Positions 4,818-30,849 of a stretch of 34,507 nt of DNA are shown here, piece after piece. The notes below the pieces were generated by a model. It saw only the letters and a program-made list of their open reading frames with translations. It was not told where the DNA came from and searched no databases. Location of the stretch: the IMG/VR virus record IMGVR_UViG_3300018418_000057, positions 1 to 34,507 of that record. One strand, 5' to 3'. Source of the DNA: a virus. Position 1 is the first letter of the stretch, and the number at the start of each line of letters is the position of its first letter. The position numbers and the translations under genes are program-made.

Positions 4818-5100
4818 CCACTTGGTTCTCTATCAAATCAAACTTTTCTAAGGCTCTACCCTCGTCAGAAATTGCCCAAGCCCATTTACCAAAATCCTCG
4901 TTACCTGGGAATATCTCCCTTTCATTGAGCTGAATTCCAAAAACAATCTTTGGCTTATCTATTTTTCTTTTAAATACCTCGTAAGCAACAGTAATACCAC
5001 TATCTGGTTCTGTTTGCTCATACATAATGGCTTTTTCACCTCTTTTATAAAACTTATAGAGGTAAGTGTTTTTCCGAATCTCTTCTGGTAATAAATCCAT
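4810..5100 (-). CDS. Hypothetical protein between clamp loader and membrane protein
   Basis: 96 aa, ATG overlapping the clamp-loader stop (TAATG). Soluble and mixed alpha/beta: YKFYKRGEKAIMYEQ, then a hairpin VAYEVFKRKI...KIVFGIQL, then EIFPGNEDFGKWAW and a C-terminal acidic helix. The FP-x-x-E-x-FG-x-WAW stretch looks conserved-type but I do not recognise a family. Tight coupling to the clamp loader suggests expression with replication genes. No catalytic motif seen. Confidence 0.6.
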   Translation of the reverse strand: MDLLPEEIRKNTYLYKFYKRGEKAIMYEQTEPDSGITVAYEVFKRKIDKPKIVFGIQLNEREIFPGNEDFGKWAWAISDEGRALEKFDLIENQVDE

Positions 5101-6096: not shown

Positions 6097-7443
6097 TTAG
6101 AACAAGTTAGACATGTCGTCTGGGTCGGATTTATCGTTCCTAATTTCTATAAACCTGGGTAAGAAAAGACTTCGATTTTCGTGCTTATCCGTAATTGTTA
6201 CGTTATACTGCACAGCTGCAATCTTACCTATAAGATCATTCGGATTTTCGCTTAGTATTTCTAGATCTTTATCAGTAAATCCAGAACCAATTTTTACGTT
6301 GAGAGTTTTTGATTTATCAGTGCAATCCAGTCCACCTATAAATCCCTCCCTTTTACCCTCGCCTGGATACCACCCAACAACTTCGAGATCACAATCGTTG
6401 ACCTCTTTAAGTTTTATCCAACTTTTACTTCTTTTACATTCATAGAGGTGGTCGTTTTTACATATAACTCCTTCTCCACCTTGATTTACAATGTCTTTAT
6501 AAATGACCAAGGTATCCTCCATAGAATCCACCTCCCACATCTGACCTAACCTAATATTTGATCCCTCTGGTAGAAGGTCCAGCGTTTCTGATAGCTTCTT
6601 TCTCCTTTTAATATAAAGAACAGAGCCCCTTCCTTTTTCGAGTGTTGAATTATCCTCCATATCAAACACATTAAAAAGGAAATTTGCATCTATATTGTCT
6701 GGGGCTGTGCCTTTAAGAATCTGTGTCACCTTTCCCGAAACAGACTTTCTGTTTAAATCTGTTAACTCGCCATCATAGAAAATAGCAGTATGTCCAGCTG
6801 CATCAGAGATAAGGGAAAGATCCTTAGCAATGTTACTAAGCTTAGAGGCATCCAACTCATTAAAAGCACGAGTATAAAAAGAGAATGATCTATCAGGATT
6901 CATCATGGCAATAACACGAACACCGACGTATTTCTCCTCGCAATATATTTTATCCCACTTTTCAATTTCCTCCTGCTTATCCGTAGCTAACATTAAAGAA
7001 GGATCCGGAATGATTTCCTTCCCGACAGCTTTGTTTATAAGCTTTGCGCCAATTCCTACATTCATTCTCTTAGTGAGGATCCTCATAAGCATCTTTCTCA
7101 TTTCGAGATCCTGATCTGGGTATTGCACAAAAGAATGGTCCAGTAAATCTTGCGCCCTTCCTCTCAATAAATCATTGGCTGCTGGAGCATTCTTCAGATC
7201 CTCTATGAGAGAAACAAAGGAATCCCAAAATGAATCGGGATTTGTTGAATAACTTCTCACTGGTTGCTCCTCTGAGAGGTCTAGTTTGTGTAGTTTGGTT
7301 GTTACAAATGGATTAAAACAGATATCCAGAATATAAGACATCTCCTCGGTGAGATTTTGTGAGATCAATCTCTGTTTCTCCTTTTGTGAACCGTTACCTG
7401 TAAGTTCTTCCAGCTGGCAAAATATTTCTAGCTCTTTAAGCAT
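6097..7443 (-). CDS. 30: ATP-dependent DNA ligase (T4 gp30-like)
   Basis: 448 aa (T4 gp30 is 487). Nucleotidyltransferase motifs in order: motif I EEKYVGVRV with the adenylated Lys171; motif III FYDGELTD (222-229); motif IIIa FLFNVFDMED (255-264); motif IV GGEGVICK (322-329); motif V SWIKLK (341-346). Motif I is usually K-x-D-G; here the Asp is Val173 (GTC; GAC would differ by one base), which is odd and might lower activity. The C-terminus ends DDMSNLF, similar to sliding-clamp-binding tails of T4 proteins (inference). It joins Okazaki fragments and acts with the exonuclease and clamp loader of the next operon. It has its own promoter-like box at 7459-7472 and terminators on both sides. Confidence 0.88.
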   Translation of the reverse strand: MLKELEIFCQLEELTGNGSQKEKQRLISQNLTEEMSYILDICFNPFVTTKLHKLDLSEEQPVRSYSTNPDSFWDSFVSLIEDLKNAPAANDLLRGRAQDLLDHSFVQYPDQDLEMRKMLMRILTKRMNVGIGAKLINKAVGKEIIPDPSLMLATDKQEEIEKWDKIYCEEKYVGVRVIAMMNPDRSFSFYTRAFNELDASKLSNIAKDLSLISDAAGHTAIFYDGELTDLNRKSVSGKVTQILKGTAPDNIDANFLFNVFDMEDNSTLEKGRGSVLYIKRRKKLSETLDLLPEGSNIRLGQMWEVDSMEDTLVIYKDIVNQGGEGVICKNDHLYECKRSKSWIKLKEVNDCDLEVVGWYPGEGKREGFIGGLDCTDKSKTLNVKIGSGFTDKDLEILSENPNDLIGKIAAVQYNVTITDKHENRSLFLPRFIEIRNDKSDPDDMSNLF

Positions 7444-7541: not shown

Positions 7542-8312
7542 TTATATCCTAAACGAAGAATCTGGTACTGCTACCCCCTTTTTATTTACCACATTTGCAC
7601 AAGCGCTATTAGCAAATTCAATAGATTCACCAGTATTACCAGTAGATAAGTACTTCAGCGAAAAGGCAGATATAAAAGTATCTCCAGCACCACTTACATC
7701 GATGGTATCCTGTGGATTTGAACTTGGGTAGATCTCTCCGTTAAACATAGCACCATTGGAACCTAGGGTTATTATAAACTTCTCTGGGTACTTATCCGCC
7801 AGGTCCTTGTTGTTTTCATATTCTATCTCATTCAGTTTAACGAATGTTATTTCCTGTATAAGATCTTCAGACAATTTCTTCTTACTATCCATAAGAACCA
7901 AGCTGCCCTGATTAGCTATTTGCTCTATATGAGATGTGGTAAGAAATCCCTTGTTATAGTCGCTGATTATTACCAGATCAGACTCGTTAATCGTACCTCT
8001 CTTTCTAGAAGACATAAAGGAAAAAGAATCCATTGGAAAACTTTCGCCCTCGTCAACCCGAACAATCATATGGTTACTCTTCTTCTCAACGAACCTAATT
8101 TTCTCTATCTTATTAGCCTGATGCCAATGAACAACCTCTATGTCATCACTTAAAGAATTCAGGTTATCCACGACGTTCCCCGCCATCCCATTATTTTCTA
8201 CAATTTCGATTGGGTTAAAAACAGGAACTGGAGCTTCTGGGCACATTCTACTTACCTCTCCGTAAACAAACCGATCTATACAGAGTTCACCTACTACTAA
8301 AACCTTTAACAT
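7542..8312 (-). CDS. PfkB-family sugar kinase, HldE/RfaE N-domain-like
   Basis: 256 aa. The N-terminus VLVVGELCIDRFVYGEVSR (4-22) and CPEAPVPVF match the start of D-beta-D-heptose-7-phosphate kinase (HldE/RfaE: VLVVGDvmlDrY..G...RisPEAPVPV), followed by a substrate loop NNGMAGNVVDNL (40-51; GG is NG here). Also seen: IISDYNKGFL (115-124), the KLNEIE nucleotide segment with Asn161 and Glu164, and the PfkB signature DVSGAGDTF (205-213) with catalytic Asp211. The family phosphorylates heptose-7-phosphate on the ADP-heptose path to lipopolysaccharide core. It is about 60 aa shorter than typical and lacks the nucleotidyl-transferase domain. Between portal and replication genes, it is an auxiliary metabolic gene; the actual sugar is uncertain. 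Confidence 0.8.
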   Translation of the reverse strand: MLKVLVVGELCIDRFVYGEVSRMCPEAPVPVFNPIEIVENNGMAGNVVDNLNSLSDDIEVVHWHQANKIEKIRFVEKKSNHMIVRVDEGESFPMDSFSFMSSRKRGTINESDLVIISDYNKGFLTTSHIEQIANQGSLVLMDSKKKLSEDLIQEITFVKLNEIEYENNKDLADKYPEKFIITLGSNGAMFNGEIYPSSNPQDTIDVSGAGDTFISAFSLKYLSTGNTGESIEFANSACANVVNKKGVAVPDSSFRI

Positions 8313-8339: not shown

Positions 8340-9935
8340 TTATAGTGTGAAACTATCTGAAGATTCCTCCTCACCTCCAGCTTCCTTAGCCTTTTCCTCG
8401 GCCTTTTTCTGCTCCATCTCCTTATACTTCTCGTTTTTCTTATACTCGTCCATCGTAAGTCCAAGATACCTCTTTATTAGGAAATTCTTATCAAAATAAG
8501 GTTCTTCCTCTTCACCAATCTTCTGCTTCATCTCACCAAGATCATTTACAAACTGTGCTCTCTTAGTATAATTCTGAAGCTGTATAAATTCTTCAAAAAG
8601 ATTCTCCCTAACATAAGTTAGGCCTAAATTTGATTTAAAAGATCTGTCCTTAGATAATTCAGGAAAATCAAGACACATTTGTATATACAAGGGTTTCACC
8701 AATATTTCTTGGAAAATAGATCTGAGCCTTGTTAGGAATTTCTCAAATCTAATCTCATCCCTTTCCAATTGGTCGATGCTAATTTGATAATTAGCAGGAG
8801 TTCCGTTTCTGAAAGCAAACCTTGCATATGGTATCTTTGAATCCTGTTTAAGCTTATTGTAGAAATAAATTACGTTATCCATTACATTGAAATCAGGACC
8901 ATTAGGATCTAATGTTTCAATTTGGGGAGATTGCCCATCTTTTTCCGGAAATAAGTAGTTCTTATAGAATTGAACCTTCGGTCTACCATTTACAGTGAGT
9001 TCACCCGAAGAATCGTTTATTTCCATTTCTTCCTTGTAAATAGACATAAGCTGTCCCAATGTCTGCATTGCCTTTTGTTGAGATTGGGAACCCACAGGAA
9101 TTACAAATTTTAGTCTGTATGATGCATTCATAACATTCCATATAACCCTGGTGTTTTCCATGATTCTTAGAATATTATAGGATCTAATTAAACGTTCTAC
9201 ATAGCTTACCCTAGATATAGTATTACCCTTTGCGTAAGAAATATAGATAACCTGCTCGCTTTTAAGATTTCTGGTCATCTTGCTATCACCAGGATACTGA
9301 ATCCATATTTGTTGATACTCACCATTTGGTTGAGGTTGTGTAGCAGGTTGCAATGAAGTAGGGTCTAGCTCTTTAAAACCAACTATTTTTTTACCGTCGG
9401 TGGAATATACGATTTCAAAAGCAAGAAATCCATCTATAAGAAATTGCTTAAAATATTGCCAAGCTAGTATTCCCTGTTGAAAACCAAAAAGCATATACAT
9501 GTTTCTATAGTTTTCGTCTAGTTTATCTATAATATTAGGCTTTAGGTCTATATTAGAAAGAGATGGATACCCAATAAAATTCTTGTCATCATAATTTATA
9601 GCATCGTCTGTAAGTGTATCTAAGATAAAATCAATTTCGCCGTTAAGGGAAAATTTCCTAAGGAAGTCTCTTTTGCCTAAATAGTCCTTATCGAAATATG
9701 CTATATACTTTCTTACCTTAGTATCTTGATAACCAAGAGTCCAATAAAAAGCATTATTCTCAGTGAATCCTGTACCTTGCTCATTAAAGAAATTAGATTC
9801 TGTAGCACCAATAGCTTGGGAGTTACGAATAACCATGTCTTCGTACTCCATACCAAATCTCCCCACCTTGGATAAATTCTTATAAAGATTCCCAAGGAAA
9901 GATCTTTCTGCTACGTAATCTAAAAATCCTGCCAT
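8340..9935 (-). CDS. 20: Portal protein, second tandem copy (gp20-like)
   Basis: 531 aa (T4 gp20 is 524). It aligns along nearly its whole length with the 536-aa protein encoded just upstream: GMEYEDMVIRNSQAIG, GKRDFLRKF, AWQYFKQFLIDGFLAFEIVY, GFKELD, KGNTISRVSYVERLIR, WNVMNAS, GELTVNGRPKVQFYKNYL, RFEKFLTRLRSIFQEILVKPLYIQMC each have a clear counterpart, roughly half the residues being identical. These segments are typical of T4-type portals (clip, stem and wing). The C-terminal tail is Lys/Glu-rich coiled coil. Its ATG follows the first portal stop after 10 bases, so both are co-translated. Whether the two copies form a mixed dodecamer or serve different structures is unknown. Confidence 0.85.
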   Translation of the reverse strand: MAGFLDYVAERSFLGNLYKNLSKVGRFGMEYEDMVIRNSQAIGATESNFFNEQGTGFTENNAFYWTLGYQDTKVRKYIAYFDKDYLGKRDFLRKFSLNGEIDFILDTLTDDAINYDDKNFIGYPSLSNIDLKPNIIDKLDENYRNMYMLFGFQQGILAWQYFKQFLIDGFLAFEIVYSTDGKKIVGFKELDPTSLQPATQPQPNGEYQQIWIQYPGDSKMTRNLKSEQVIYISYAKGNTISRVSYVERLIRSYNILRIMENTRVIWNVMNASYRLKFVIPVGSQSQQKAMQTLGQLMSIYKEEMEINDSSGELTVNGRPKVQFYKNYLFPEKDGQSPQIETLDPNGPDFNVMDNVIYFYNKLKQDSKIPYARFAFRNGTPANYQISIDQLERDEIRFEKFLTRLRSIFQEILVKPLYIQMCLDFPELSKDRSFKSNLGLTYVRENLFEEFIQLQNYTKRAQFVNDLGEMKQKIGEEEEPYFDKNFLIKRYLGLTMDEYKKNEKYKEMEQKKAEEKAKEAGGEEESSDSFTL

Positions 9936-9945
9936 CCTTTATTAC

Positions 9946-11556
9946 TTATTCTTGAGGAGGGGCTTCCTCCGTTGATTCCTCTGCGGGTTCCTGTGCTTCA
10001 TCTTCATCCTTTTCTTCTTCAGCCTTTTTAGCTTCTTCTTCCTTCCTTTTTTGAATCGCCTCCTTATTACCTTTAATATCATCAGCATTCATACCCAGAT
10101 GGGATTCAATTAAATAAGCTAAAGAGAAGAAGGGCTCACCAGAGTCGTCGGTTAAAGTGTACATGCCATCTATTTGCTCCTTCTTTTTAAGCATGGTTTC
10201 TATCTCCTGGTTTATCCTAAACGGATTATCAGAAACAAATTCCAAGCCCAACTGACTCTTGAACAAATAATCCTTCTCCAGCTCGGGGAAGTCTTTACAC
10301 ATCTGTATCCAAAGTGGCTTAACAAGGACATCTTGGAAAATAGATCTAAGCCTAGTAATAAACTTGGCAAATCTTATTTCTTCCTTATCAAGTCCTTCAG
10401 CGCCATTTGAATAATTTCCAATCGATCCGCCGTCAGGACCCTGGAATCTAGAAAAAGGAACCTTCGATTCTTGAACCAGCTTGTCATAAAAGTAAGCAAG
10501 CGGTTGAGGGTCGTTAAGGTTTGGTCCAGCATTATTTATAGGCTCTATAGTTGGAGTACCATTTACACCAGAAGGCATAAGGTAATTTTTGTAGAACTGT
10601 ATTTTAGGTCTACCATCTACAGTTAATTCCCCGCTCTCATCATTAAACCTAATATCTTCTTTGTAGATACTCATCAATTCACCTAAGGTCTGCATTGACT
10701 TTTGAGGTGACCTCGATCCAATTGGTACCGTCATCTTCATTCTAAAAGATGCGTTCATTACAGACCAAATAACCCTGGTGTATTCTATAATTCTTAGAAT
10801 GTTGTAAGGCCTAATAAGTCTTTCAACATAACTAACCCGAGAAACTGTATTACCTTTGGCAAAAGAAATATAAATAACCTGAGAATCATAGAGCATCCTT
10901 CTCTTGTTAATATCATTAGGATACTGATACCAAACATTTAGATATGTTCCGTCTGGCTGTTTTTCAACAGAAGGCATTAGAGTTGTAGCATCTAATTCCT
11001 TAAATCCTATTATCTCCTTACCCTTGTCATTATATACAATCTCAAAGGCAAGGAATCCATCAACCATCAATTGCCTGAAGTATTGCCAAGCACTTATATC
11101 ATCAGTAAAGCCGAACATGTCGTACAGCTTTTTAAAGTTTTCGTCGATTCTATCCTTTACTTTGTCCTTTACGTCAGTTAAGTTTAGGAATGCAGGATGT
11201 GCGAAGAAGTTTTGGGGATCGAAAGTTATAGCTTCATCACAAACGGTATCCAGGATGTACTCAATTTCAGGATTTAAAGCAAACTTTCTTAGATAATCCC
11301 TTTTACCAGCATAATCTTTATCATAATAACTAATAAACTGCCTGGTTGTAGTGTCTTGCCTTCCTAAAGAATAAAGCAAGCTTTCATCGTCAATAGCTTG
11401 CTTTTTCATGAACTCAGCTTCTATCGACCCGATAGCTTGCGAGTTCTTAATCACCATATCACCATATCTCATACCAAAGTTACTAAGAGACTTTACAGAC
11501 TCTCGTATTCTCTGGAATATTGGGCTTCCTTCTTGATTTTCGTTAAATCCGGCCAT
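9946..11556 (-). CDS. 20: Portal protein, first tandem copy (gp20-like)
   Basis: 536 aa. Portal hallmarks include GMRYGDMVIKNSQAIGS near 28-44, GKRDYLRKFALNPEIEYILD, DGFLAFEIVY, KGNTVSRVSYVERLIRPYNILRI, GELTVDGRPKIQFYKNYLMP and TRLRSIFQDVLVKPLWIQMCKDFPEL. The portal is the dodecameric ring at the capsid vertex through which the terminase pumps DNA and to which the neck attaches. The C-terminus ends in a very acidic Glu/Ala-rich coil ending PPQE. A GATATATAA box at 11619-11627, inside the end of the preceding gene, may drive the portal pair. No major capsid, scaffold or protease gene is recognisable next to it, unlike T4. Confidence 0.88.
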   Translation of the reverse strand: MAGFNENQEGSPIFQRIRESVKSLSNFGMRYGDMVIKNSQAIGSIEAEFMKKQAIDDESLLYSLGRQDTTTRQFISYYDKDYAGKRDYLRKFALNPEIEYILDTVCDEAITFDPQNFFAHPAFLNLTDVKDKVKDRIDENFKKLYDMFGFTDDISAWQYFRQLMVDGFLAFEIVYNDKGKEIIGFKELDATTLMPSVEKQPDGTYLNVWYQYPNDINKRRMLYDSQVIYISFAKGNTVSRVSYVERLIRPYNILRIIEYTRVIWSVMNASFRMKMTVPIGSRSPQKSMQTLGELMSIYKEDIRFNDESGELTVDGRPKIQFYKNYLMPSGVNGTPTIEPINNAGPNLNDPQPLAYFYDKLVQESKVPFSRFQGPDGGSIGNYSNGAEGLDKEEIRFAKFITRLRSIFQDVLVKPLWIQMCKDFPELEKDYLFKSQLGLEFVSDNPFRINQEIETMLKKKEQIDGMYTLTDDSGEPFFSLAYLIESHLGMNADDIKGNKEAIQKRKEEEAKKAEEEKDEDEAQEPAEESTEEAPPQE

Positions 11557-11590: not shown

Positions 11591-12196
11591 CTAAGCATTT
11601 AATTTCGATCTATAATCATTATATATCCCACTGGTAGATTGACCCTCTATCCTAAAATCGGAAATATATGGGATTCTGACCCAATCCTCATAATCTACAA
11701 CGCTCACTTCTGCTATAAAATCCCTCTTAAAGCCCGTTAAAGATGTTTTCCACCCAGTCCCGCTTAGGAGCCTGTCAAAAGATTGAGTAATATTTCTTAC
11801 CGGAGCTTGAGAGGAGTAAGGAAGCTGGGAATTTTCCTTAAATAGGGGAAAGTACTGTTCCCATAATTTGAATAAAATGTTCCCTCTATAGTCGGGAGGA
11901 ATAACATTAAGATCTAGAGAAATCAGAATATCAGAACCGTTATGTCTTTCCTTCTTTACAAACATGAATATTGGAGACCTATCTATGAATGGATGTTTTT
12001 CAGAAACCATTGTCTTGGTTTTATATGAAGCTGAATAAATTTTCCCAGGTATAAAATTTCCATCAAATTTCATATTACCACCATCACCGCCTGGGCCATA
12101 CTTACCAAAAAAGTATCTGTTTGAATCGGTCGAAACCTGAGAGACCGAACTAGATCCATCCCTCAAATCCTTTATCTGCTCTTCAAAGGATTTCAC
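11591..12196 (-). CDS. Hypothetical virion-assembly protein
   Basis: 201 aa; the GTG start overlaps the TGA of the gp4-like gene (GTGA). Sequence features: acidic helix at the N-terminus, Gly-rich GKYGPGGDGGN near 32-42, then GKIYSASYKTKT, PFIDRSPIFMFVKK, DLNVIPPDYRGNILFKLWEQYFPLF, and a C-terminal VVDYEDWVRIPYISDFRIEG. The G-K-x-Y...Y..KT...P..D..P arrangement with DLNxIP recalls small proteins of T4-like phages placed beside gp4 that are thought to act on packaged DNA ends or the neck, but I cannot assign a family with confidence. Position between gp4-like and portal genes suggests late head completion or neck function. Confidence 0.55.
   Translation of the reverse strand: MKSFEEQIKDLRDGSSSVSQVSTDSNRYFFGKYGPGGDGGNMKFDGNFIPGKIYSASYKTKTMVSEKHPFIDRSPIFMFVKKERHNGSDILISLDLNVIPPDYRGNILFKLWEQYFPLFKENSQLPYSSQAPVRNITQSFDRLLSGTGWKTSLTGFKRDFIAEVSVVDYEDWVRIPYISDFRIEGQSTSGIYNDYRSKLNA
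11619..11627 (-). promoter_or_regulatory. Candidate late promoter box GATATATAA upstream of the portals
   Basis: Minus strand TGGGATATATAATGATT. It lies within the last codons of the 201-aa gene, about 63 bases before the first portal ATG. It matches the other GATATATA boxes but is the only one of the set inside a coding region, so it is less certain. Confidence 0.4.
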
Positions 12197-12678
12197 TTGC
12201 TCTTAAATAAAAAATTCTCATCAACCACGCCGAATTTATAGCCTCTAGCATCTGCCCATCTCTGAGCCGCTTTAAATTTTGCTTGGTTGGTAATCCATAT
12301 TTGCATCTTGTGATTATAAGACTTAAGCTTTTTGAGTGTGCTATTTCCCTCTAGAATCGGTCTCTTAAAGTGCTTTTCTGGCTTTACCTCTATTATCCAA
12401 TCCTGTGTTTGTCCATCATCTTTAAGGACCTGCATATAAAAATCCACATTATACTGATGCTCTTTCTTATCTAATGGATTGTAATAAGGAATTGATATAG
12501 GTTCAGAACTCCATTTAAGGATTTTTTCATTATTGTCACAATAGCGACAAAATCTAAATTCCCACGAGGATCTACATATTATGTTATGAACGTCGCCGAT
12601 ATATTTGTCTGGGTTTTGAGCTACATATAGTCCAGACTTATAATCCCCGTTGGGTTTTATTTTTTTTATATCCGGCAT
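12193..12678 (-). CDS. 4: Head completion nuclease (T4 gp4/gp50-like)
   Basis: 161 aa (T4 gp4 is 150). Strong family pattern: NPDKYIGDVHNIICRSSWEF (22-41; T4 has HPEKYKGDPTKIIYRSLWE), CDNNEKILKWSSEPISIPY (47-65), HQYNVDFYMQV (74-84) and WIIEVKPEKH (94-103). Glu40, Asp79, Glu97 and Lys99 give the E...D...ExK arrangement of T7-endonuclease-I-like nucleases. In T4, gp4 acts on full heads and is needed for joining head to tail. The gene sits directly after the gp55-like sigma gene and overlaps the next gene by 4 bases. Confidence 0.88.
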   Translation of the reverse strand: MPDIKKIKPNGDYKSGLYVAQNPDKYIGDVHNIICRSSWEFRFCRYCDNNEKILKWSSEPISIPYYNPLDKKEHQYNVDFYMQVLKDDGQTQDWIIEVKPEKHFKRPILEGNSTLKKLKSYNHKMQIWITNQAKFKAAQRWADARGYKFGVVDENFLFKSK

Positions 12679-12680
12679 TT

Positions 12681-13040
12681 CTACACATTATACGTATTGT
12701 CATCTCCGGTTATGTATGAAAAAGGAATAGTTTTTGGAGCTTTTGGTGGATGTATTTTTTTCCATCCTTTAGCAAAACCATTTTTAGCTATCTGTGTAAA
12801 GTATGCAAAGGGGTTATTAGATTTTTCTGGATTGAACCTATTCCAATATTTGCAAAGGTCCTCCATAGCAAAAGCCATACAGTCTGCTTTATCATCAGGA
12901 TCCCGGTAAGCCATCTTCTTAGATATACCTTGAACCATTAGGCCAAACATCTCTATAGTCTCAGGTGTGAGTTCACCTTTTTCCTTTGACTCCAATACTG
13001 CAGCCATCAGATCTTTATTCCTTACATAAGCCTTTGCCAT
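12681..13040 (-). CDS. 55: Late-transcription sigma factor (T4 gp55-like), short
   Basis: 119 aa. AYVRNKDLMAAVLESKEKGE, then IEMFGLMVQGISKKMAYRD, KADCMAFAMEDLCKYWNRFN and NPFAYFTQIAKNGFAKGWKK line up with T4 gp55 (YVNNKELLQAI..., [54 protein letters not shown]). This corresponds to sigma region 2, which reads the -10 element of late promoters. T4 gp55 (185 aa) continues to a C-terminal SLDFLF motif that binds the sliding clamp and couples late transcription to replication; the present protein ends at IPFSYITGDDNTYNV with no such motif. It probably reads the GATATATA boxes described here (inference). Confidence 0.8.
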   Translation of the reverse strand: MAKAYVRNKDLMAAVLESKEKGELTPETIEMFGLMVQGISKKMAYRDPDDKADCMAFAMEDLCKYWNRFNPEKSNNPFAYFTQIAKNGFAKGWKKIHPPKAPKTIPFSYITGDDNTYNV

Positions 13041-13091: not shown

Positions 13092-13277
13092 CTAAGCCTT
13101 ATCCTCTTCGGTACCATCTTCAGAAGAAATGAGCGTGTCCCCAGTAGGTTCCTTTCCATCTGGGGCGACGCTCATTTTATCTTCGATATTATCGACGAAA
13201 GGCTCTGGAGATTCAGATTGCTCCTCTCCCGTAGGAGCAAAAGACCAAACTTTACTAAGTATTTTTCTTAGTTTTTT
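13092..13277 (-). other. Candidate programmed -1 frameshift and 59-codon extension
   Basis: The repeat protein ends ..TCA AAA AAA AAC TAA. The heptamer A_AAA_AAC (13277-13271) is a canonical -1 slippery site in the correct phase, one codon before the stop. After a -1 slip the frame stays open for 59 codons to TAG at 13094-13092. The extension begins LRKILSKVWSFAPTGEE and contains KMSVAPDGKEPTGD, repeating the xAPxG motifs of the parent protein's C-terminal repeats. The -1 frame has a TGA five codons upstream and no useful start, so it is reachable only by slippage. GAGGAG lies 5 bases before the heptamer (SD-like stimulator), and a 6-bp hairpin ACTAAG/CTTAGT follows at once. A one-base homopolymer sequencing error (9 versus 10 A's) would give the same picture. 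Confidence 0.65.
13129..13175 (-). repeat. Long two-part inverted repeat in the frameshift extension
   Basis: Outer arms ATGAGCGT / ACGCTCAT (8 bp) and inner arms CCCCAG / CTGGGG (6 bp) separated by a 2x2 internal loop, with a 15-base apical loop. No T-tract follows, so it is not a standard terminator. A second hairpin (TTGCTCCT / AGGAGCAA, 8 bp, 7-base loop) lies at 13218-13240. These strong structures in an AT-rich region may act on frameshifting or mRNA stability. Confidence 0.5.
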
Positions 13278-16060
13278 TTTGACTCCTCGCTTTCGTCAAT
13301 GTTATATCCCATTTCTGGGTTAACTTCTAAATCAGTTTCTGCTTCAGTACCAGCTGCTGGTGCTTCTGCTAATTCCTGGTTAGTTTTCATGATATCGGCT
13401 GCTGCTTTTTCTGCCTTGGCAACTTCAACATCATATTCTGCTTTGTGCTCACCACCAGGGGCAACTGATAATTGCTGATCTGTTTTTTCCATATCATCAG
13501 CCTCATCAAGGTTATATCCCATCTCATCGCCAACTTCGTGATGTAATTCCTTGTCAGTACCATCTCCAGGAGCAGATGCCATGTCTGAGTCTGTTTTTAC
13601 CATGTCAGGATTTGACTCTTCAGCTTTAACTGATTTTACCTCATAATCCGCATGAGATCTTCCACCCGGTGCTTCTGCTAATTGCTGATCTGTGTTTTCA
13701 ACATCTCTTTCAGACAACTCCGAATTTCCTTCGGAAGGAGCTGTAGCCATTTCGTTATCTGATGACTCCACTTCCTCTGTATTTTCATTTACGTTATACC
13801 CAATCTTATCAACCAAAGAATCCTTAAGCTTAACGCTATAATCAGTTTCCTTTTCGCTTCCTTCAGGAGCTTCTTCTAAATTAGCGTGGTCTTCTTTCTC
13901 GATATCTTTTTTACCAGCTTCATCTTGATCCTTAGCTGCAGGTGCTTCAGAAGTATTTGCCTTTAGTGTAGAAGCTGGAGTTTTATCCTTTTCAGATGCT
14001 GTTTTGTTCTCCGGAGCTACTGCCATATCCTGAGAAGACTCTTCCAAAGCATCCTCTGTATTTTCTTCAGCAGTTTCTATCGGTGTTTCGTTCTCTTTAA
14101 CCTCCTCTTGAGTTTCATCAGCTTCCTGATTTTCTTCACCAGCAGATTTTAGAGCTTCCTCAATGTCAACGATTTCATCCATTCTGAAATCACCGGTTCT
14201 TCCGTTATCCATTAGTACAGTGTAAGAACCTGACGTACTATCCATAGAAATAATCTTTCCTGTATTTCCGGACTCCTTTACCTTTACGTAATCACCAACG
14301 GTGAATTTTTGATCCTCGTTTAAATCCTCCATTTCAATAGAAGAAGATTCTATTTTTTCGATCTCCTCGTTAACAGCCGACCATTTTTTCCTAAGCGAAG
14401 ATAGCTCCTGCTCAAGCATATGCTTGGCTCTTGCCATTTCCTTAGAGTTTTCGTAAAGTGGGTTGGTAGCCATTGCTTGTGAGATCTTATTGATCTCATT
14501 TTCTACAATAGCGATATTGTCAATAATTTGCTTTCTATCATTAAGCATAATTGACTTAATTCTATTCTCACCGTCCAAGAATTCAGTTAATCCTTCAGAA
14601 ATATCATATTTCATAAGATCCTTAACCATTGAAGTAGCTTGCGTACCATTTACTTGGAATAAAGAATTCTCGTTCATTCCTTCGTTGATCCTGTTAAGAT
14701 AAAGGTTTGAGTTCCATTTAATCAAGTTTACTGATACACCTTCGAAAACTTTAGATTCTAACCTTTTAGCAAAATCAAGCTCAACAACATTTGAGAAGTT
14801 TTCATAAAGATTAATGATGTCAGAAACTGCTTTCGACTCATTAACTCCCAAGCTTCCAGATATTTCTAATGCTATCTGCTTTGCCAATTGAGTTGTGTCA
14901 CTAAAGTTAATCTTATTCTCTTTAGAATAGATTGATACAGAGTCAGACTCTTCCACAATCTTGAAGCTGCTGTTTCCAACATAGAAACTTAGTCCACTTT
15001 CGTTAATTTTAACCATCGGAGAGTAAAATGACCCTAACAAAGTTTTAAATGACTCTGGCAGAGCAGAGTATTCAACATTCGAGAGTCTCTTGATTCCCTC
15101 AGAATTACCTTCAAATACATTACTACCAATAGTAAATACTGTCTTACCACCAGAAACGTGTACTGGAGAATAAACTTTCCTCACAGAAGAATTACCATTG
15201 TTAACCGGTATACTTAGCTTAGACTCTGAGGATTCCATTAAAGAAAGCGTATTAACAAGATTTCTTACCGTCGGGTTAAAAGACCATCTCGAGATCTCTT
15301 TGGACAAAAGTGAAACGGACTTATTCTCTGATATCAACCACTTATTCAGAGATTCTGTTACTGGAGAATAGAAATCAGCACCAGCGTTCTTTTCAATAGA
15401 ATATAAAGCCTTTGAAACCTCAATCTCAGGTCTTAGCGAAGCGACGTTTTCCTTAATTGTCTCTACTGCTGATTTTACTTTGTTATCCCAGTTGAAGTTT
15501 TGTAGCTCCTGGACAAATGCCTCAGCTAATAAAAATTCAGGGGTATTATTGTTCTTTAAAAGATGAGTAAATTTCTCGCAAAGGATTTTTACATTCGGAT
15601 GCTCGTAAATGCCAGTGCCTTTCAAAGATAGAATAGACTCGTATACACCAAGATTATTAACTGCCTGTGAATCAATGAATGCTTTAGCTGAAGGATCCTT
15701 TTCTGCCACCTCCTTAAGACTCTCAGAAATATTAGTAACTTCAACAGAATCATCTTTCTTACCATCTACATAAGATCCAGAATTTTTAGAGGTATTAGAT
15801 CCAATACCACCCCAAGATTCCATTAGTTTTTGAGCTGCTGATTTAGATCTTTCTATTTCTTGCTGTCTTAGCATTTCGATAGGATTTGCAGCGGTTTCGC
15901 CTTCACTTTCCTTTACTACCTGGTCAACAGATTCAAGGATTGCGGATTCATTTACAGATTCCCCATTTTGTATTTTATTAATGTGGGATTCGCAAATCGA
16001 TCTAACTTCAGGGTTAGTGGTTGTTTCCCTAAGAGTTTTTAATTGATTAAGTAAGTCCAT
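13268..16060 (-). CDS. Long repeat-rich probable virion or prohead protein
   Basis: 930 aa from ATG 16060. A GTG 33 bases upstream is in frame but lies inside the promoter box, so it is rejected. Residues 1-500 are helical with Ser/Asn-rich stretches and many (I/L/V)-x-E sites of the kind cut by T4-type prohead proteases. About 505-590 is a coiled coil (MLEQELSSLRKKWSAVNEEIEKIESS). Next comes a KOW/SH3-like barrel KFTVGDYVKVKESGNTGKII...DNGRTGDFRMDEIVDIEEA. The last 300 residues are very acidic and repetitive, including two clear 70-aa repeats (TDQQL.xAPGG...MGYNxDE). Placement beside gp55, gp4 and portal genes and its own late box suggest a scaffold, internal head or other virion role; no family recognised. 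See the -1 frameshift extension, which would give 989 aa. Confidence 0.75.
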   Translation of the reverse strand: MDLLNQLKTLRETTTNPEVRSICESHINKIQNGESVNESAILESVDQVVKESEGETAANPIEMLRQQEIERSKSAAQKLMESWGGIGSNTSKNSGSYVDGKKDDSVEVTNISESLKEVAEKDPSAKAFIDSQAVNNLGVYESILSLKGTGIYEHPNVKILCEKFTHLLKNNNTPEFLLAEAFVQELQNFNWDNKVKSAVETIKENVASLRPEIEVSKALYSIEKNAGADFYSPVTESLNKWLISENKSVSLLSKEISRWSFNPTVRNLVNTLSLMESSESKLSIPVNNGNSSVRKVYSPVHVSGGKTVFTIGSNVFEGNSEGIKRLSNVEYSALPESFKTLLGSFYSPMVKINESGLSFYVGNSSFKIVEESDSVSIYSKENKINFSDTTQLAKQIALEISGSLGVNESKAVSDIINLYENFSNVVELDFAKRLESKVFEGVSVNLIKWNSNLYLNRINEGMNENSLFQVNGTQATSMVKDLMKYDISEGLTEFLDGENRIKSIMLNDRKQIIDNIAIVENEINKISQAMATNPLYENSKEMARAKHMLEQELSSLRKKWSAVNEEIEKIESSSIEMEDLNEDQKFTVGDYVKVKESGNTGKIISMDSTSGSYTVLMDNGRTGDFRMDEIVDIEEALKSAGEENQEADETQEEVKENETPIETAEENTEDALEESSQDMAVAPENKTASEKDKTPASTLKANTSEAPAAKDQDEAGKKDIEKEDHANLEEAPEGSEKETDYSVKLKDSLVDKIGYNVNENTEEVESSDNEMATAPSEGNSELSERDVENTDQQLAEAPGGRSHADYEVKSVKAEESNPDMVKTDSDMASAPGDGTDKELHHEVGDEMGYNLDEADDMEKTDQQLSVAPGGEHKAEYDVEVAKAEKAAADIMKTNQELAEAPAAGTEAETDLEVNPEMGYNIDESEESKKN
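13274..13693 (-). repeat. Two tandem 210-bp (70-aa) repeats coding the acidic C-terminus
   Basis: Copy A (13693-13484) and copy B (13483-13274) each begin TDQQL (the 15 bases are identical) and contain xAPGG, an EV/K-rich helix, a KT(D/N).(D/E)(M/L)A(S/E)AP motif and then EMGYN(L/I)DE. Between copies the repeats have diverged at many positions, so they are old. A third, partial MGYN-like copy (KIGYNVNE) lies upstream. Confidence 0.75.
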
Positions 16061-16082
16061 TCTACTTGTGTTTTTTTGCTTT

Positions 16083-16104
16083 CTATATATCACACCTGTG
16101 ATAT
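16083..16104 (-). promoter_or_regulatory. Candidate late promoter with overlapping dyad
   Basis: Minus strand GTGTGATATATAGAAAGC with the GATATATAG box at 16091-16083, 22 bases before the ATG at 16060. A perfect 8-2-8 inverted repeat, ATATCACA CC TGTGATAT, covers 16087-16104 and overlaps the box, which could be an operator or chance. A second weaker box (AATATATAA) lies near 16118-16126. The rest of this 93-base gap holds a 7-bp hairpin TTCCAAA/TTTGGAA without a T-tract. Confidence 0.5.
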
Positions 16105-16153: not shown

Positions 16154-16699
16154 TTATCTTGCTATAATAATTTCAAGCTTTACGTCAATGTCAGTGTGAG
16201 GGTTGCTGAACGTAATTCCTCCGTCTTCATACGGCAGGAAATCCTCACTGAGGTTCCATCCGGTTTTTTCGGAATCTGTTGACCCTAACTTTCCACCAGT
16301 TAGAATCATTAGTTCCCCGACATTATATGTATTTCCTCTATATGTCCAATAGATGTATTTCTTGACTTGAGGGGTACCGTTTGTTGGAGTTGGGACTCCC
16401 GGTATAATAGGTGTCTGGGATCCATAAAGAATCGGATTTCTAGGAGCTGGGTACTTTACCTTAACTGCTATCCATTTAACAAATCCGTTAGAGTCCCCAA
16501 TGTCAGTTTGACTTATCTTTACACTTTTATTCCTTTTAAGGGTTACTTTTAGTCTTGAATAGGAAATTACCTCATCCCGTAAGTCACTAAAGTCAAAAAA
16601 ATTGGTGATATTGTAATCCTCCTCCAGAACAAACTTATCCTTTCTAAAAAGAAATCCCTCAATAGGCTGAGGTGGACATATAATAGGTCTTGTTGCCAT
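16154..16699 (-). CDS. Probable virion protein, paralogue of the preceding gene product
   Basis: 181 aa, beta-rich, Pro/Gly-rich linker near 95-110 (TPIIPGVPTPTNGTPQ). The C-terminal half KYIYWTYRGNTYNVGELMILTGGKL...GWNL...GGITFSNPHTDIDVKLEIII parallels the 224-aa neighbour (LLYWHYNSG..YIMSDMMMLTGQVK...KGWQTL...GGFVFSNPTEYPVKLTILTA). The ATG overlaps the neighbour's stop codon (TAATG), so the two are coupled. No family recognised; a small structural role (neck, baseplate, fibre or decoration) is inferred from context and beta-rich composition. Confidence 0.6.
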   Translation of the reverse strand: MATRPIICPPQPIEGFLFRKDKFVLEEDYNITNFFDFSDLRDEVISYSRLKVTLKRNKSVKISQTDIGDSNGFVKWIAVKVKYPAPRNPILYGSQTPIIPGVPTPTNGTPQVKKYIYWTYRGNTYNVGELMILTGGKLGSTDSEKTGWNLSEDFLPYEDGGITFSNPHTDIDVKLEIIIAR

Positions 16700-17373
16700 T
16701 AGCTTGCTGTTAATATTGTAAGTTTAACCGGATATTCAGTAGGATTTGAAAATACAAATCCACCAGTAGCTGCCCCAGTATATCCAACCTGGTCATCCAT
16801 ATCAGGCAGAGTTTGCCACCCCTTCCAGGAAGCATCAGGTTTAACTTGGCCTGTAAGCATCATCATATCAGACATAATGTATCTTAATCCACTGTTATAA
16901 TGCCAGTAGAGAAGTCTTTGGTCTTCCTCAGCATCAGCATAATAATGAGCTCTTGCCATAACAAGACTTACTTCACCCAGAGTAGTGTCAAAATCCCCAG
17001 GATCCAAATTAATAGAGGTGTCAGGGGAGATCACAAAAGATTGTCTCTGGTATCCTGAAAATGACTGTAAAGGGTGAAAATATTCAGAAAGATCTAATTT
17101 TTCATCTATATCTGCTTGATAGGTAACATTCATCGAAGTCTGAAATATCCTTACCTCGTGTGGATCGTTATAGTTTGAGAAGGTAAGATTTACTCTTCTC
17201 ATAGACCCAGGAGTGTTAGCAATTAACGTATATCTAGTATCAAAAGGACCAGACTGACCTGTCGTTAATGCTGGGTTACTATCGCCATAGCCGAAAGGAG
17301 TGCCTGATCCAGTTCCACCTTTACTAGATCCACCCCCGAAGATTTCTAAATTGTCACCTATATTTGCACTCAT
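16699..17373 (-). CDS. Probable virion protein, first of a paralogous pair
   Basis: 224 aa. Gly/Ser-rich N-terminus (FGGGSSKGGTGSGTPFGYG) and then a beta-rich body: RRVNLTFSNYNDPHEVRIFQ, LDLSEYFHPLQSF, VSLVMARAHYY, LLYWHYNSGLRYIMSDMMMLTG, and the terminal GGFVFSNPTEYPVKLTIL shared with the 181-aa product. Its ATG sits 1 base after the stop of the membrane protein gene. Together with the next gene it forms one of three tandem structural paralogue pairs in this window. Function not recognised; virion component is the best guess. Confidence 0.6.
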   Translation of the reverse strand: MSANIGDNLEIFGGGSSKGGTGSGTPFGYGDSNPALTTGQSGPFDTRYTLIANTPGSMRRVNLTFSNYNDPHEVRIFQTSMNVTYQADIDEKLDLSEYFHPLQSFSGYQRQSFVISPDTSINLDPGDFDTTLGEVSLVMARAHYYADAEEDQRLLYWHYNSGLRYIMSDMMMLTGQVKPDASWKGWQTLPDMDDQVGYTGAATGGFVFSNPTEYPVKLTILTAS

Positions 17374-24452: not shown

Positions 24453-25031
24453 TTAAAGGAATAGGTCGTTCCAGTAATCTGACTTCCATGTAGTATCAAT
24501 GGTATAAAGAGCATCTCCGATATCGTAAGAAAGGTTCATTGGAGTAATTGGCTCTACCAAGAAACAATTGTTCAGTGTTATCCTCCTGAAGACATCACCT
24601 TGTTTATTAAAAACAGAAACTACCATAGAACCAACATAATCTCTTTTAAGACCCATTGCTCCAGTTAATGGATTGTAAATTAAATCAGACCATTGTCTTA
24701 AAACCTTATAAAGAACCATAGAATTGTCCTCATTAAGGTTCACTTCGAAAGACATATTAAACTGTACATCAGATGTAGATGGTTCACCACCAGCATACCT
24801 TCTTTCAGCAAACTTGTAATATTGGGTAACAGCATCAGCTGGCTGTATATCAACTTGTAAGGCAGAAATACTCTTCACTTGCTGAGTAAGTATATTCTCA
24901 CCCTTAAATGTAGTATTAGCAAGATTGATACCGTTAGGTGGAGTTATAAGAACCTCAAACTGGTTTAAGAAAACCGGCTCGTAGTTATTCCTTGCTGCCT
25001 TAGAGTTGTTAAAATGTGGTAAACCTGCCAT
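24453..25031 (-). CDS. 19: Tail tube protein, second copy (gp19-like)
   Basis: 192 aa (T4 gp19 is 163). Ends TTWKSDYWNDLFL, comparable with the ALDYWE end of T4 gp19. It shares with the 184-aa neighbour MAGLPH, NQFEV, Y.FA.R.YAGG.P, RQW.DLIYNPLTGA.G.K.DY.G, VVSVFNK.GDVFRRITL and the DYW.DLFL end, about half of residues overall. Main differences: an extra loop (LANTTFKGENILTQQV) and a less acidic centre. Tail tubes stack as hexamers inside the sheath. Its start is 17 bases after the first copy's stop. A separate initiator or terminator ring role for one copy is possible. Confidence 0.82.
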   Translation of the reverse strand: MAGLPHFNNSKAARNNYEPVFLNQFEVLITPPNGINLANTTFKGENILTQQVKSISALQVDIQPADAVTQYYKFAERRYAGGEPSTSDVQFNMSFEVNLNEDNSMVLYKVLRQWSDLIYNPLTGAMGLKRDYVGSMVVSVFNKQGDVFRRITLNNCFLVEPITPMNLSYDIGDALYTIDTTWKSDYWNDLFL

Positions 25032-25048
25032 TTATGCTTTGTTATATT

Positions 25049-25603
25049 TTATAGGAATAAATCGTCCCAGTAATCAACTGCCCAAGTCATATTAATCTCA
25101 TAGAGCGTAGTACCATTTACGTATTCTAGCTCCATAGGATCAATTGCTTTTAGTGGGAAGCAATCCTTAAGAGTAATTCTCCTAAATACATCACCATTTT
25201 TATTGAAGACAGACACAACGATTGTCCCAGTATAATCTGCTTTAATTCCTTGCGCCCCTGTCAATGGATTGTAAATTAAATCAGTCCACTGTCTCATCGT
25301 CTTAAAGACGTACATTGAATTAGCATCGTCAAGGTTGACAGTAAACTTTAAACCAAGATCCAGAGTTGTTGTATCTGGTTTACCTCCAGCATAGTTCCTC
25401 TTTGCAAACTTATATTTCTGAGATACAAAGCTAGGGTTTTTATCCACATCCAAACCACTTACAGAAACAACTTGTTCTAGTAGCACTGGACCTCCAGAAA
25501 CAGCCGCAGGTGGTATAACATTTACCTCAAATTGGTTAAGGTAAACCGGCTCAAATTTATTAACCGAGTTTATGGAATTTTGGTAATGTGGTAAACCAGC
25601 CAT
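25049..25603 (-). CDS. 19: Tail tube protein, first copy (gp19-like)
   Basis: 184 aa. Starts MAGLPHYQNSINSVNKFEPVYLNQFEVNVIPPAA and ends YEINMTWAVDYWDDLFL, the expected tube-protein ending. Beta-rich throughout. It directly follows the sheath gene (49-base gap), as gp19 follows gp18 in T4. Upstream is a GATAAATAT box close to the late-box consensus, 20 bases before the ATG, which may give the abundant tube protein an extra promoter. With the next gene it forms a tandem pair, the same arrangement as the portals. Confidence 0.85.
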   Translation of the reverse strand: MAGLPHYQNSINSVNKFEPVYLNQFEVNVIPPAAVSGGPVLLEQVVSVSGLDVDKNPSFVSQKYKFAKRNYAGGKPDTTTLDLGLKFTVNLDDANSMYVFKTMRQWTDLIYNPLTGAQGIKADYTGTIVVSVFNKNGDVFRRITLKDCFPLKAIDPMELEYVNGTTLYEINMTWAVDYWDDLFL

Positions 25604-28600: not shown

Positions 28601-28949
28601 TCGAATAACCAAAATAGTTAACCACATCAGCTGTAGGGCTATCTATATCATTATTCAAATTCAACAAATTCAGAGCAAATACTGGGCCAGTATTTAAACA
28701 CGCAAATATTGAGCGGTGGAAGTAAGATCCTTTAGCCTCTAAAGTCTTATCTATATCACCAAAAATTGCTACCGCTGTAGTTACATCCGGTAAATACACG
28801 GGAGCATTAAAAGGTCCTTTATTCGAAAATCCCACCACCAATCTTATAGTCTGAGACGTAAGAATGACGTTTTCTGAAGCGTCAAACTCAAGCGTATAGA
28901 CTCCTGATGCTTTAAATTGGGATAAATCCAGTTTGATTTTCTTTGCCAT
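25653..28949 (-). CDS. 18: Contractile tail sheath protein (gp18-like), enlarged
   Basis: 1098 aa, against 659 in T4. N-terminal GVYTLEFDASENVILTSQTIRLVVGFSNKGPFNAPVYLPDVTTA (16-59) is the handshake-type start of sheath proteins. The C-terminal domain from about 790 is typical: DTFSGQILPNSKYQLSKLAM, GLNPIIKKRGLGVVVFGNQTAYQ, VRDLLISVENDVEEIMANYLFDFN, GGGIYAYQVIMDSSNN and VIIEPARGIQKFINRITVTRTGG. Between, residues about 330-700 are Ser/Thr/Gly/Ala-rich beta sequence that is probably inserted surface domains. The sheath contracts to drive the tube through the envelope. Two late boxes lie upstream. It lies between terminase and tubes as in T4. Confidence 0.9.
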   Translation of the reverse strand: MAKKIKLDLSQFKASGVYTLEFDASENVILTSQTIRLVVGFSNKGPFNAPVYLPDVTTAVAIFGDIDKTLEAKGSYFHRSIFACLNTGPVFALNLLNLNNDIDSPTADVVNYFGYSIDTEQSNGVLTSRLYSSFYNKERFWFADTDYFLATLSAVDTGRLFNLVNLGKEAISVIVRKSTDAVQPLQGYDVFALDWYGADNVPSFMHPYDYISDYFIDVISVSGDWTDYETLSLDPKWSSYFTRNGFIKSQINNFLSQPDVNIVTSTTGCLIPDFVDLNGNNQYIQTLINNNTPSTGLFCAVDEDAMDDICTNPYKIDLVGHHLIDELTADRDIVDARLNFLSYDQNLTADYLYSQNVTTITDAATGASGSSPDSINVGTLLTIGATSTYGVGATAFDGYDPSLKYGGLHYVVTNSGVTGASLTTAEKNELVSFATPSATSSPYIMGRVTGLSGLTGSVINQFSENDLVKLRVSGVIQTGGEVLLTWTHPLDTASYSAQGVSVTPYSNMVGATSGNISADYYQFASSDYLDITSVSSVTGGTASNALTGQLSTAFYQDLLYGELEDGDQIWLNETGSSINYISYESTIDRDQFAVAYARQFDNVARQNPDNLVDYTAFSTGLPGSKPFASDNIGLPVAAGKTDIVSSVGSINQFIDVITQIDPTNFTISSSPSSPISVGDLIVSTDQDICETVGSNRQYRLTRVTSVAQTTTPNVVQVTTARPLYYYAGSPIQVQKFKSIPQFTRSFDFTYLNGFTMRDSHRPNGTDARVSELLDVMYNTNIAATLAAKDVISFRYIVDTFSGQILPNSKYQLSKLAMMRQKALALINAPSMEQFRESTDPRFTDAPTQTNPYPSLKAQYISEGGNLSLNPSYTFSLPTEDQGAKYAAFYTPYLTVRENNRNVNVPPAAYISNNFVRKFANGEPYSIIAGQKRGVISGQNLVGLEYDFTDEDRGWLEPVGLNPIIKKRGLGVVVFGNQTAYQTVNSAFNLVHVRDLLISVENDVEEIMANYLFDFNEDSIRLEIKTLVDNYLDGVRAGGGIYAYQVIMDSSNNPPSIIDQNIGIIDVIIEPARGIQKFINRITVTRTGGIAAGGFIQFA

Positions 28950-29052: not shown

Positions 29053-30849
29053 TTAGAGCAACTGACTGAAAGAGCTATAGAACCCTCCCTCTTTGGTTGA
29101 TGCTCCATCCTCACTATTTTCTTCCATCTTTAGATCTATAAGATCCCGGTAGGTAGATTCACCAAGCTCATCATACAATTCACCAACAAGATCATAAAAA
29201 TCGGAGGATTCAAACATCCCAGAAAGATTTACAATCGTCATTGCTACATCATCGTGTCCAGATTGACTTGAATAAGTTCCCCTAGTGTTAAGACCGAAAG
29301 AGAATAACTCAGGTACAGTCCAAGTAGATTCGTTTATTATTACCCTATTCATCCTCATCTGAGATCTAAGAATCTCACAGTATTTCATCTTGTTTTTCTC
29401 GTTGTACTTTATACCAGGCTTTCTCGTCCTAGCAGATTCTGTGTGCTTTGTGTGTACAAAGATTTCGAGAGGAAAGTCGTCATTTAAAATGAGCTTGTCT
29501 ATAAGCAATTCACCTTTAAAGTTAATCTCTAAAAGTACCCTTACATTTTCTGGATTGAAGAACTTAACAACCAAGGCTTCGAGGATTTTTTTAAAATCCT
29601 CAACCTCAATTTCATTATCCCTATAAATGCCAACCTGTAGAAGCCCGAAAAAGTCAGACTCATCTTGGAAATCATCCATGGCCTCTATTACTTTTTTTGG
29701 CAGAGGTACCACCTTAAAAATATTAAGAACTGTAAAATCCCCCTTTCCGCCACCAGCTAAGTCAATCGAAATAACAAATCTATTATTGAAAAGAGTATCA
29801 GTATTCAAACTGAATTTTGGATGCCATCTAAAATTGTCATACGGAAGTCCAACATCCTCTAGAACATCAATGTCCCTCCATTCATATTCAACCTCGTTTG
29901 CTTTAATTTTTTTAAGCTCGTTAGATCCTAGAAGCAATGTAGAGGAACTTAAAAACTGGTTGCCGTATTCCTGATTAAACAATTCTTGAGAACCTAGGTT
30001 AGCGATTTCTTGTTTTTTCCATTCTTCGTCCCTTCCGGGAACTTGCCACCAATCAACCCTTATAGGATTAAAGCTATTTTCACCATCAACAGCACCTTTA
30101 TAAATTTCATAGAATTTATTCATTCCATTTGGGGTTGATGTAATAATAATTCTAGAAACCTTAGAAGAAGATACTGTAGGATATGTTGATCTAAAAAACG
30201 ATTCTATAAAATTTGGGTGGATATGAGCAAATTCGTCCATATAAAGAAAGTGAATTGTAAAACCAATTGCGGATGTTTTTGTAGTAGTTTTTGCAATTGC
30301 TCTACACCCGTTATCAAACTTCATAGACATCACATTGTTTACTACCATACCAGGTTTTAAGAACCACGGCAGACCTCTTACTATTGCTTTGATCTTATCC
30401 ATCAGTTCTTCTGCAGTAGAACCAACGTTTGCTAAGATCATTGCATTTTTATCGTGATTGAAAAGAAGATACCAAACAAGGACAATAGCTGAAGTAATTG
30501 ATTTTCCAACCTGTCTAGGTGCTAAAAATATATTAAATCTATTAGCTTGATACTCACGGAGAACTGATTCTTGGTAGTCACGAAGTTTTACATAAAAAAG
30601 ACCGTCATCAGTCATGACCCTACAGTACTTAGAAAAATAAACAACATCTTTTGCGCATCTTTCCATCTCTAAAATCTCGTCTTGTGTATACTCATACAAA
30701 AGATTTGACATCTTAAGCTCTGGGTCACCATCATGAAAGGGGTTATCAACAGACTTGTAATCAAGCCCCTCCTCTTCAACCCTAAATAGAAGTTCCTCTA
30801 TTCTTTTGGTACTCCAGTAATTGGAATCTTTCTCTTCTTTTTCGGCCAT
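29053..30849 (-). CDS. 17: Terminase large subunit (gp17-like)
   Basis: 598 aa (T4 gp17 is 610). ATPase: Walker A APRQVGKS at 110-117, Walker B FLYMDEFAHI with Asp205/Glu206, coupling motif ITSTPNG (236-242). Nuclease: ISIDLAGGGKGD with Asp363 and Asp371, Glu441 in LLEINFKG, and HDD (Asp533/534), corresponding to Asp401, Glu458 and Asp542 of T4. It packages DNA by headful and cuts the concatemer. N-terminus has a Lys/Glu leader. It starts 2 bases after the small terminase stop (TAACAATG). Confidence 0.96.
   Translation of the reverse strand: MAEKEEKDSNYWSTKRIEELLFRVEEEGLDYKSVDNPFHDGDPELKMSNLLYEYTQDEILEMERCAKDVVYFSKYCRVMTDDGLFYVKLRDYQESVLREYQANRFNIFLAPRQVGKSITSAIVLVWYLLFNHDKNAMILANVGSTAEELMDKIKAIVRGLPWFLKPGMVVNNVMSMKFDNGCRAIAKTTTKTSAIGFTIHFLYMDEFAHIHPNFIESFFRSTYPTVSSSKVSRIIITSTPNGMNKFYEIYKGAVDGENSFNPIRVDWWQVPGRDEEWKKQEIANLGSQELFNQEYGNQFLSSSTLLLGSNELKKIKANEVEYEWRDIDVLEDVGLPYDNFRWHPKFSLNTDTLFNNRFVISIDLAGGGKGDFTVLNIFKVVPLPKKVIEAMDDFQDESDFFGLLQVGIYRDNEIEVEDFKKILEALVVKFFNPENVRVLLEINFKGELLIDKLILNDDFPLEIFVHTKHTESARTRKPGIKYNEKNKMKYCEILRSQMRMNRVIINESTWTVPELFSFGLNTRGTYSSQSGHDDVAMTIVNLSGMFESSDFYDLVGELYDELGESTYRDLIDLKMEENSEDGASTKEGGFYSSFSQLL

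Follow-up and report, generated by a model that had tools for sequence, protein, structure and literature searches.

The window, that is, the whole 34.5-kb virus fragment analysed here, carries a T4-like structural module on the minus strand. Its recognised genes follow one another in transcription order as head-closure-domain protein, large terminase, sheath, two tubes, late sigma factor, gp4-like protein, portal A and portal B:

31640-34195, minus strand: head-closure-domain protein, the first recognised gene in transcription order
29053..30849, minus strand: large terminase (phrog_5989, E 1e-52)
25653-28949, minus strand: tail sheath
25049..25603, minus strand: tail tube 1, 184 aa, the near-ancestral copy, with weak but significant matches to the tail tube families phrog_45 and phrog_3629
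24453..25031, minus strand: tail tube 2, 192 aa, the derived copy, 55% identical to tube 1
12681..13040, minus strand: late sigma factor (phrog_234, E 5.4e-15), syntenic, upstream of the portal pair
12193..12678, minus strand: gp4-like head closure gene (phrog_218, E 4.4e-45), upstream of the portal pair
9946..11556, minus strand: portal A, 536 aa, first in transcription (PF07230, 200.8 bits; phrog_213, E 7e-58)
9936..9945, minus strand: the 10 nt between the stop of A and the start of B
8340..9935, minus strand: portal B, 531 aa, second in transcription (PF07230, 207.1 bits; phrog_213, E 9.5e-58)

The terminase would be the motor that both portals have to serve. The gp4-like head closure gene is also found upstream of the single portal of the phage LR756500, in synteny with the window. 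Among the remaining genes of the window, that at 13268-16093 encodes a 941-aa protein whose acidic C-terminal part contains a repeated motif like (L/M)A.AP(G/E)...; its homologue is present at the equivalent position in LR756500 and in G002, a relative with two portals. The adjoining genes at 16154-16699 and 16699-17373 have no assigned function; the product of the latter shares 26% identity with what G002 has as the counterpart of the former, and the two may be old paralogues. A PfkB-family sugar kinase is encoded immediately after the portals (7542-8312), with a 28% identical homologue in the matching place in G002. At 401-1282 there is a gene for a UvdE-like UV endonuclease.

The two portal genes
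The preliminary description of this DNA recognised two complete portal genes in tandem, of these positions and lengths and about half identical, and it was right: both ORFs are complete and their products share 51% identity and 71% positives over 505 aa (E=0). The sole PHROG match of either product is phrog_213, 'portal protein'. Both clear the cut-off of 22.9 for Portal_T4 (PF07230), A over positions 7-432 and B over positions 9-431 of the 433-position profile, and both match the solved T4 gp20 (E 7e-13 and 4e-16, respectively). In the alignment A and B run through all the T4 domain borders, so that the order wing-stem-clip-stem-tunnel loop-wing-crown appears to be kept in each. AlphaFold2 monomers computed from 31-sequence alignments reached a pLDDT of only 44.8 for A and 43.3 for B, too low for a judgement of the fold. 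A T4-type portal is encoded by a single gene per genome, and every genome of the clade to which the window belongs, hereafter the pair clade, has two; since the family is defined by homology, both A and B remain its members.

Both tails had also been described as acidic or charged. Clade-wide, D and E make up 29% of the last 36 residues in A and 28% in B, i.e., the tails are charged, and acidic on average. The portal tail of single-copy relatives is equally acidic (28% D/E), and this feature is therefore an inherited one. Portal B of the window ends in FTL, and the -TL ending is found in 37 of the 44 B lineages versus 17 of the 44 A lineages. It is also worth mentioning that in the locus L401 the last ~20 codons of A and B (about 4930-4990 and 6557-6617) are nearly identical DNA, with 37 nt exact, and that L194 has 24 nt exact at the ends of both genes, which, as in L401, are otherwise far apart. 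This suggests local gene conversion of the C-terminal tail in L401 and L194.

The two genes are probably co-transcribed. There is no promoter-like site on the coding strand between A and B; a separate promoter for B was considered and rejected, promoter-like sites in the region (13) being fewer than in shuffled sequences (21.1). Matches to the late promoter TATAAATA occur at chance level only.

Distribution of the portal and tail tube pairs
IMG/VR was searched for relatives with five queries derived from A, B and relatives of these, and in a sixth scan with the portal of LR756500. The loci retained were those with portal genes not cut by a contig end, some of them overlapping on one contig, and 44 pair lineages were defined at <93% similarity in A. 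The search for the pair in related genomes, advised in the preliminary description, found both portals kept, adjacent and in fixed order in all 231 loci that hold both uncut (44 lineages). Among the nearest relatives (28 lineages), each of the 84 loci contains exactly one portal; the scan of genome contigs found only four single-copy relatives. No pair-clade contig without one of the copies was seen, save where the contig ends. Decay of one copy in relatives, which had been named as evidence against the retention of both, was looked for as well, and both copies are intact in all contigs save two, of which one has a frameshifted B (L051) and the other a stop in A (L080/L128). The near-complete relatives, of 343-373 kb, carry exactly two portals each, with no third portal elsewhere in these genomes, and the same number was found in contigs of 319 and 430 kb. 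In 65 distinct pairs from relatives the gap between A and B ranges from -1 to 23 nt, and an intervening gene is never present.

Among GenBank phages, 1,089 places were obtained from 1,087 matching records with one copy and 2,142 from 2,140 with the other, and only LR756501 and LR756503 (735 kb) were seen with a second place. That in LR756501 is a 342-aa partial homologue, not a full copy. No second full-length portal was seen in the 2,140 records with a matching portal, and the statement that T4-like phages have one portal holds across the matching GenBank records. As far as titles and abstracts of the open-access literature show, no phage has been described with two portal genes; the pair can be considered a configuration of a known protein family for which no earlier report was found there.

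Some of the huge phages contain smaller portal-like ORFs. The 342-aa ORF of LR756501 (L151, record positions 142302-142820) is 32% identical to the N-terminal half of the phage's own portal; it seems to be devoid of the clip region, and may be a reduced portal paralogue of this 735-kb phage. A 190-aa ORF resembling the portal clip region only is located apart from the full portal in LR756500 (256118-256330, L152) and in the single-portal record G008 (58615-58827). Between 182156 and 262488 of LR756500 (L248-L252) there are also approximately nine copies of an ORF family of 470-650 aa, 43-69% identical, which lie among structural genes and adjoin the tail tube and sheath; the terminase matches are split over three ORFs. 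The whole arrangement resembles the outcome of a burst of mobile elements, or of elements encoded in introns.

A tandem pair of tail tube genes is present in every searched pair-clade genome with a complete region (G001-G003, G005-G007, G022-G025 and G027-G031); the contig of G026 ends inside the tail tube region. A single tube gene was found in eight single-portal sister contigs, in LR756500, LR756501, LR756502, LR756504, LR745206 and Lak, and in G009, while in five single-portal records, among them the 429-kb G008, nothing matched a tube, and these are uninformative on tube number. The doubling of the tube occurs in the portal-pair clade and nowhere else among the genomes sampled. When the 437 ORFs of G002 (373 kb) were compared all against all, the only paralogue pairs above 45% identity were the tubes (56%) and the portals (51%); neither the terminase nor the sheath had a paralogue in this comparison, and the capsid is represented by one main Gp23 gene and one short Gp23-like ORF.

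Phylogeny, constraint and sites of divergence
In a tree of 120 portal proteins, rooted on the 634-735 kb phages, 27 single-copy sisters are followed by the single-copy L219 and L220, and then by A and B. The A clade (44 proteins) has a support of 100, the B clade (44) of 99, and A and B together form one clade with a support of 97. Because the single-copy sisters nest the pair in this way, one ancient duplication on the stem of the pair clade is indicated. Some branches of the tree are long and caused a tool warning; in a smaller tree A and B each form one clade as well. Measured from the duplication, the branch to A (0.666 changes per site) and the branch to B (0.658) are of equal length; had one copy alone acquired a new job, a long branch would be expected for it. 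Among pairs whose dS lies within 0.2-1.2, the median dN/dS of A is 0.019 and that of B 0.015. The two copies are thus under equally strong purifying selection and have diverged at equal rates; two paralogues retained under strong constraint are what a hetero-oligomeric portal calls for. Over 2,080 genome pairs the amino-acid-changing divergence of A and that of B proceed in step (slope 1.03, r=0.96), a correlation that is owed largely to common ancestry and is not taken as proof of contact between A and B, since shared ancestry alone gives high values. The tube tree also shows one duplication, in the same clade. There the derived copy (24453-25031 in the window) is supported at 100/99 on a stem of 0.46, and the near-ancestral copy, with a stem of 0.09, forms a clade of weak support. 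Unlike that of the tube, the duplication of the portal was symmetric.

Differences between A and B were assigned to domains by alignment to the distant T4 gp20, with borders taken from PMC4493910. Fixed differences, 22 sites in all, occupy 16 of the 71 conserved columns in the stem, clip and tunnel loop versus 6 of 95 elsewhere (Fisher p=0.0045); in a denser, more redundant set the fractions are 19/77 and 6/99 (p=0.0008). Two segments of the window are of particular concern:

10508..10753, minus strand: clip domain of portal A, residues ~269-350, aligned to T4 279-358, with the fixed changes M275 and E293
8769..8891, minus strand: channel loop, second stem helix and tunnel loop of portal B, residues ~349-389, with the fixed changes F349, V355, N360, A371 and I387

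With the single-copy relatives as the reference for which copy changed, the fixed changes are reciprocal. A changed in alpha-5 and the clip (S to P at A250, F to M at A275, Q to E at A293), and B in the channel loop, alpha-7 and the tunnel loop (L to F at B349, L to V at B355, D to N at B360, S to A at B371, A to I at B387). The likeness of A to B is lower than that of A to the single-copy portals in stem-2 (0.33 versus 0.42) and in the tunnel loop (0.31 versus 0.40), and exceeds it in the wings. Both copies have preserved the clip tip and the conserved positions of the wing. In T4 the stem, clip and tunnel loop provide the subunit contacts and the DNA channel: the clip sheet is built of strands from two neighbouring subunits, neighbouring tunnel loops are in contact and act as a gate for DNA, and it is with the wing that the portal meets the capsid (PMC4493910). 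Our reading of the sequences is that the capsid contact would have been kept by both copies, with the channel and subunit contacts divided between them.

Interpretation and comparison with known systems
Most likely, A and B come together in a single mixed portal ring, and the tail tube, too, may consist of both its paralogues. The ancestral gp20 gene was duplicated once, in place, and both products would have become obligatory parts of one portal vertex, likeliest of a mixed ring in which, e.g., A and B subunits alternate in the dodecamer. One message would supply both subunits to one ring. The shared wing positions would set A and B against one capsid protein, and the kept clip tip would allow both to meet the one terminase and the neck, while the functions of the channel would be split, A bearing altered alpha-5 and clip contacts and B an altered alpha-7, channel loop and tunnel loop, that is, the DNA valve. 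The tail tube may be mixed likewise, making the axial DNA conduit a structure of paralogue pairs; this wider proposal, of a two-subunit portal with two kinds of tunnel loop and symmetry below 12-fold together with a two-subunit tube, is put forward tentatively.

The preliminary description had left three options unranked: a hetero-oligomer, two particle types, and the use of one copy in another complex. The fixed tandem order, equal constraint, single terminase and sheath, and tube duplication now favour the hetero-oligomer over two particle types, the composition of the ring being what we infer. Two separate homomeric portals, for two particle types or two settings of the life cycle, are quite improbable, even though, with both tubes and portals doubled, there could be one set for A and one for B, and the differences in contact regions could prevent mixing; as a counterpoint to the mixed ring, these fixed differences could equally separate A and B as homomeric rings. 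However, for two full particle types one would expect more duplicated parts than G002 has, its terminase and sheath being without paralogues and its second Gp23-like ORF short, and separate switching of A and B is unlikely given their tandem arrangement, the small gaps and the lack of a promoter sign between them. It is less improbable, albeit unlikely, that one copy is the virion portal and the other serves elsewhere, in an assembly-initiation ring, a scaffold-stage ring replaced later or an inner-head ring. T4 gp20 also initiates head assembly (PMC4493910), the reduced portal-like ORFs of other huge phages (342 aa in LR756501, 190 aa in LR756500) indicate that portal paralogues can take other roles, and the -TL ending is commoner in B than in A; yet the branch lengths and constraint of A and B are equal, and neither copy has lost the conserved wing positions or the clip tip. 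The probability not assigned to the mixed ring, to an accessory role or to two particle types belongs to options not listed here.

A constructive neutral ratchet, in which chance complementation after the duplication created a mixed ring that became locked in with no gain in function, is a claim about the cause. The structure it predicts is the same as in the explanation favoured above, with which its probability overlaps, and it is possible, if on the doubtful side. Fungal V-ATPase rings are a known case of such a ratchet, and symmetric divergence with reciprocal losses of ancestral residues is what it produces, but the simultaneous doubling of the tube and the faster divergence of A and B in the tunnel loop hint at function. 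That the duplication is recent, decaying and functionless, or an assembly artefact, is scarcely credible: set against the two damaged copies noted above are a duplication predating the whole clade, a loss never seen and dN/dS below 0.02 in both copies. Phylogeny and constraint contradict a recent or decaying duplication, and an artefact is ruled out by the recurrence of the pair in contigs from many metagenomes and by copies only 51% identical.

Portals, by which DNA passes into and out of the virus head, are regarded as homomeric 12-subunit rings, and it is a long-standing question why a 12-fold ring is set in a 5-fold vertex, beside a five-part motor and a 6-fold tail. If A and B alternate, the symmetry of the portal would fall from 12-fold, e.g., to 6-fold; a clade with two kept portals and a duplicated tube would allow a direct test of ring symmetry against subunit identity in packaging and DNA retention. 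If the proposal is true, the two-subunit portal would be the first natural hetero-oligomeric portal known to us. The portal pair also makes these phages, a large lineage of huge phages with contigs of 340-430 kb, easy to recognise from their genomes. Judging by relatives, the hosts of the clade are probably Bacteroidota.

Duplicated virion proteins are known from T4, in which gp23 and gp24 have specialised within one particle; unlike gp24, which takes separate vertices, A and B would share one ring. In the tube and sheath of Afp/PVC and in the V-ATPase c-ring, duplicated proteins became joint, non-exchangeable subunits; to our knowledge, none of these cases concerns a portal. The closest known portals are those of LR756500 (45% identical), of LR756501-LR756504 and LR745206 (34-38%) and of Lak (about 35%). 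In LR756500 the upstream genes (gp4-like, late sigma factor and the homologue of the 941-aa protein) are ordered as in the window. All these phages have one full-length portal and, where found, one tail tube, whereas the pair clade has two of each. T4 gp20 (PF07230, PDB 3JA7) resembles A and B in family, length, domain order and place in the structural module, after the head closure genes. It differs in that T4 has one gene and a homododecamer, while this clade has two obligate paralogues that differ in the stem, clip and tunnel loop.
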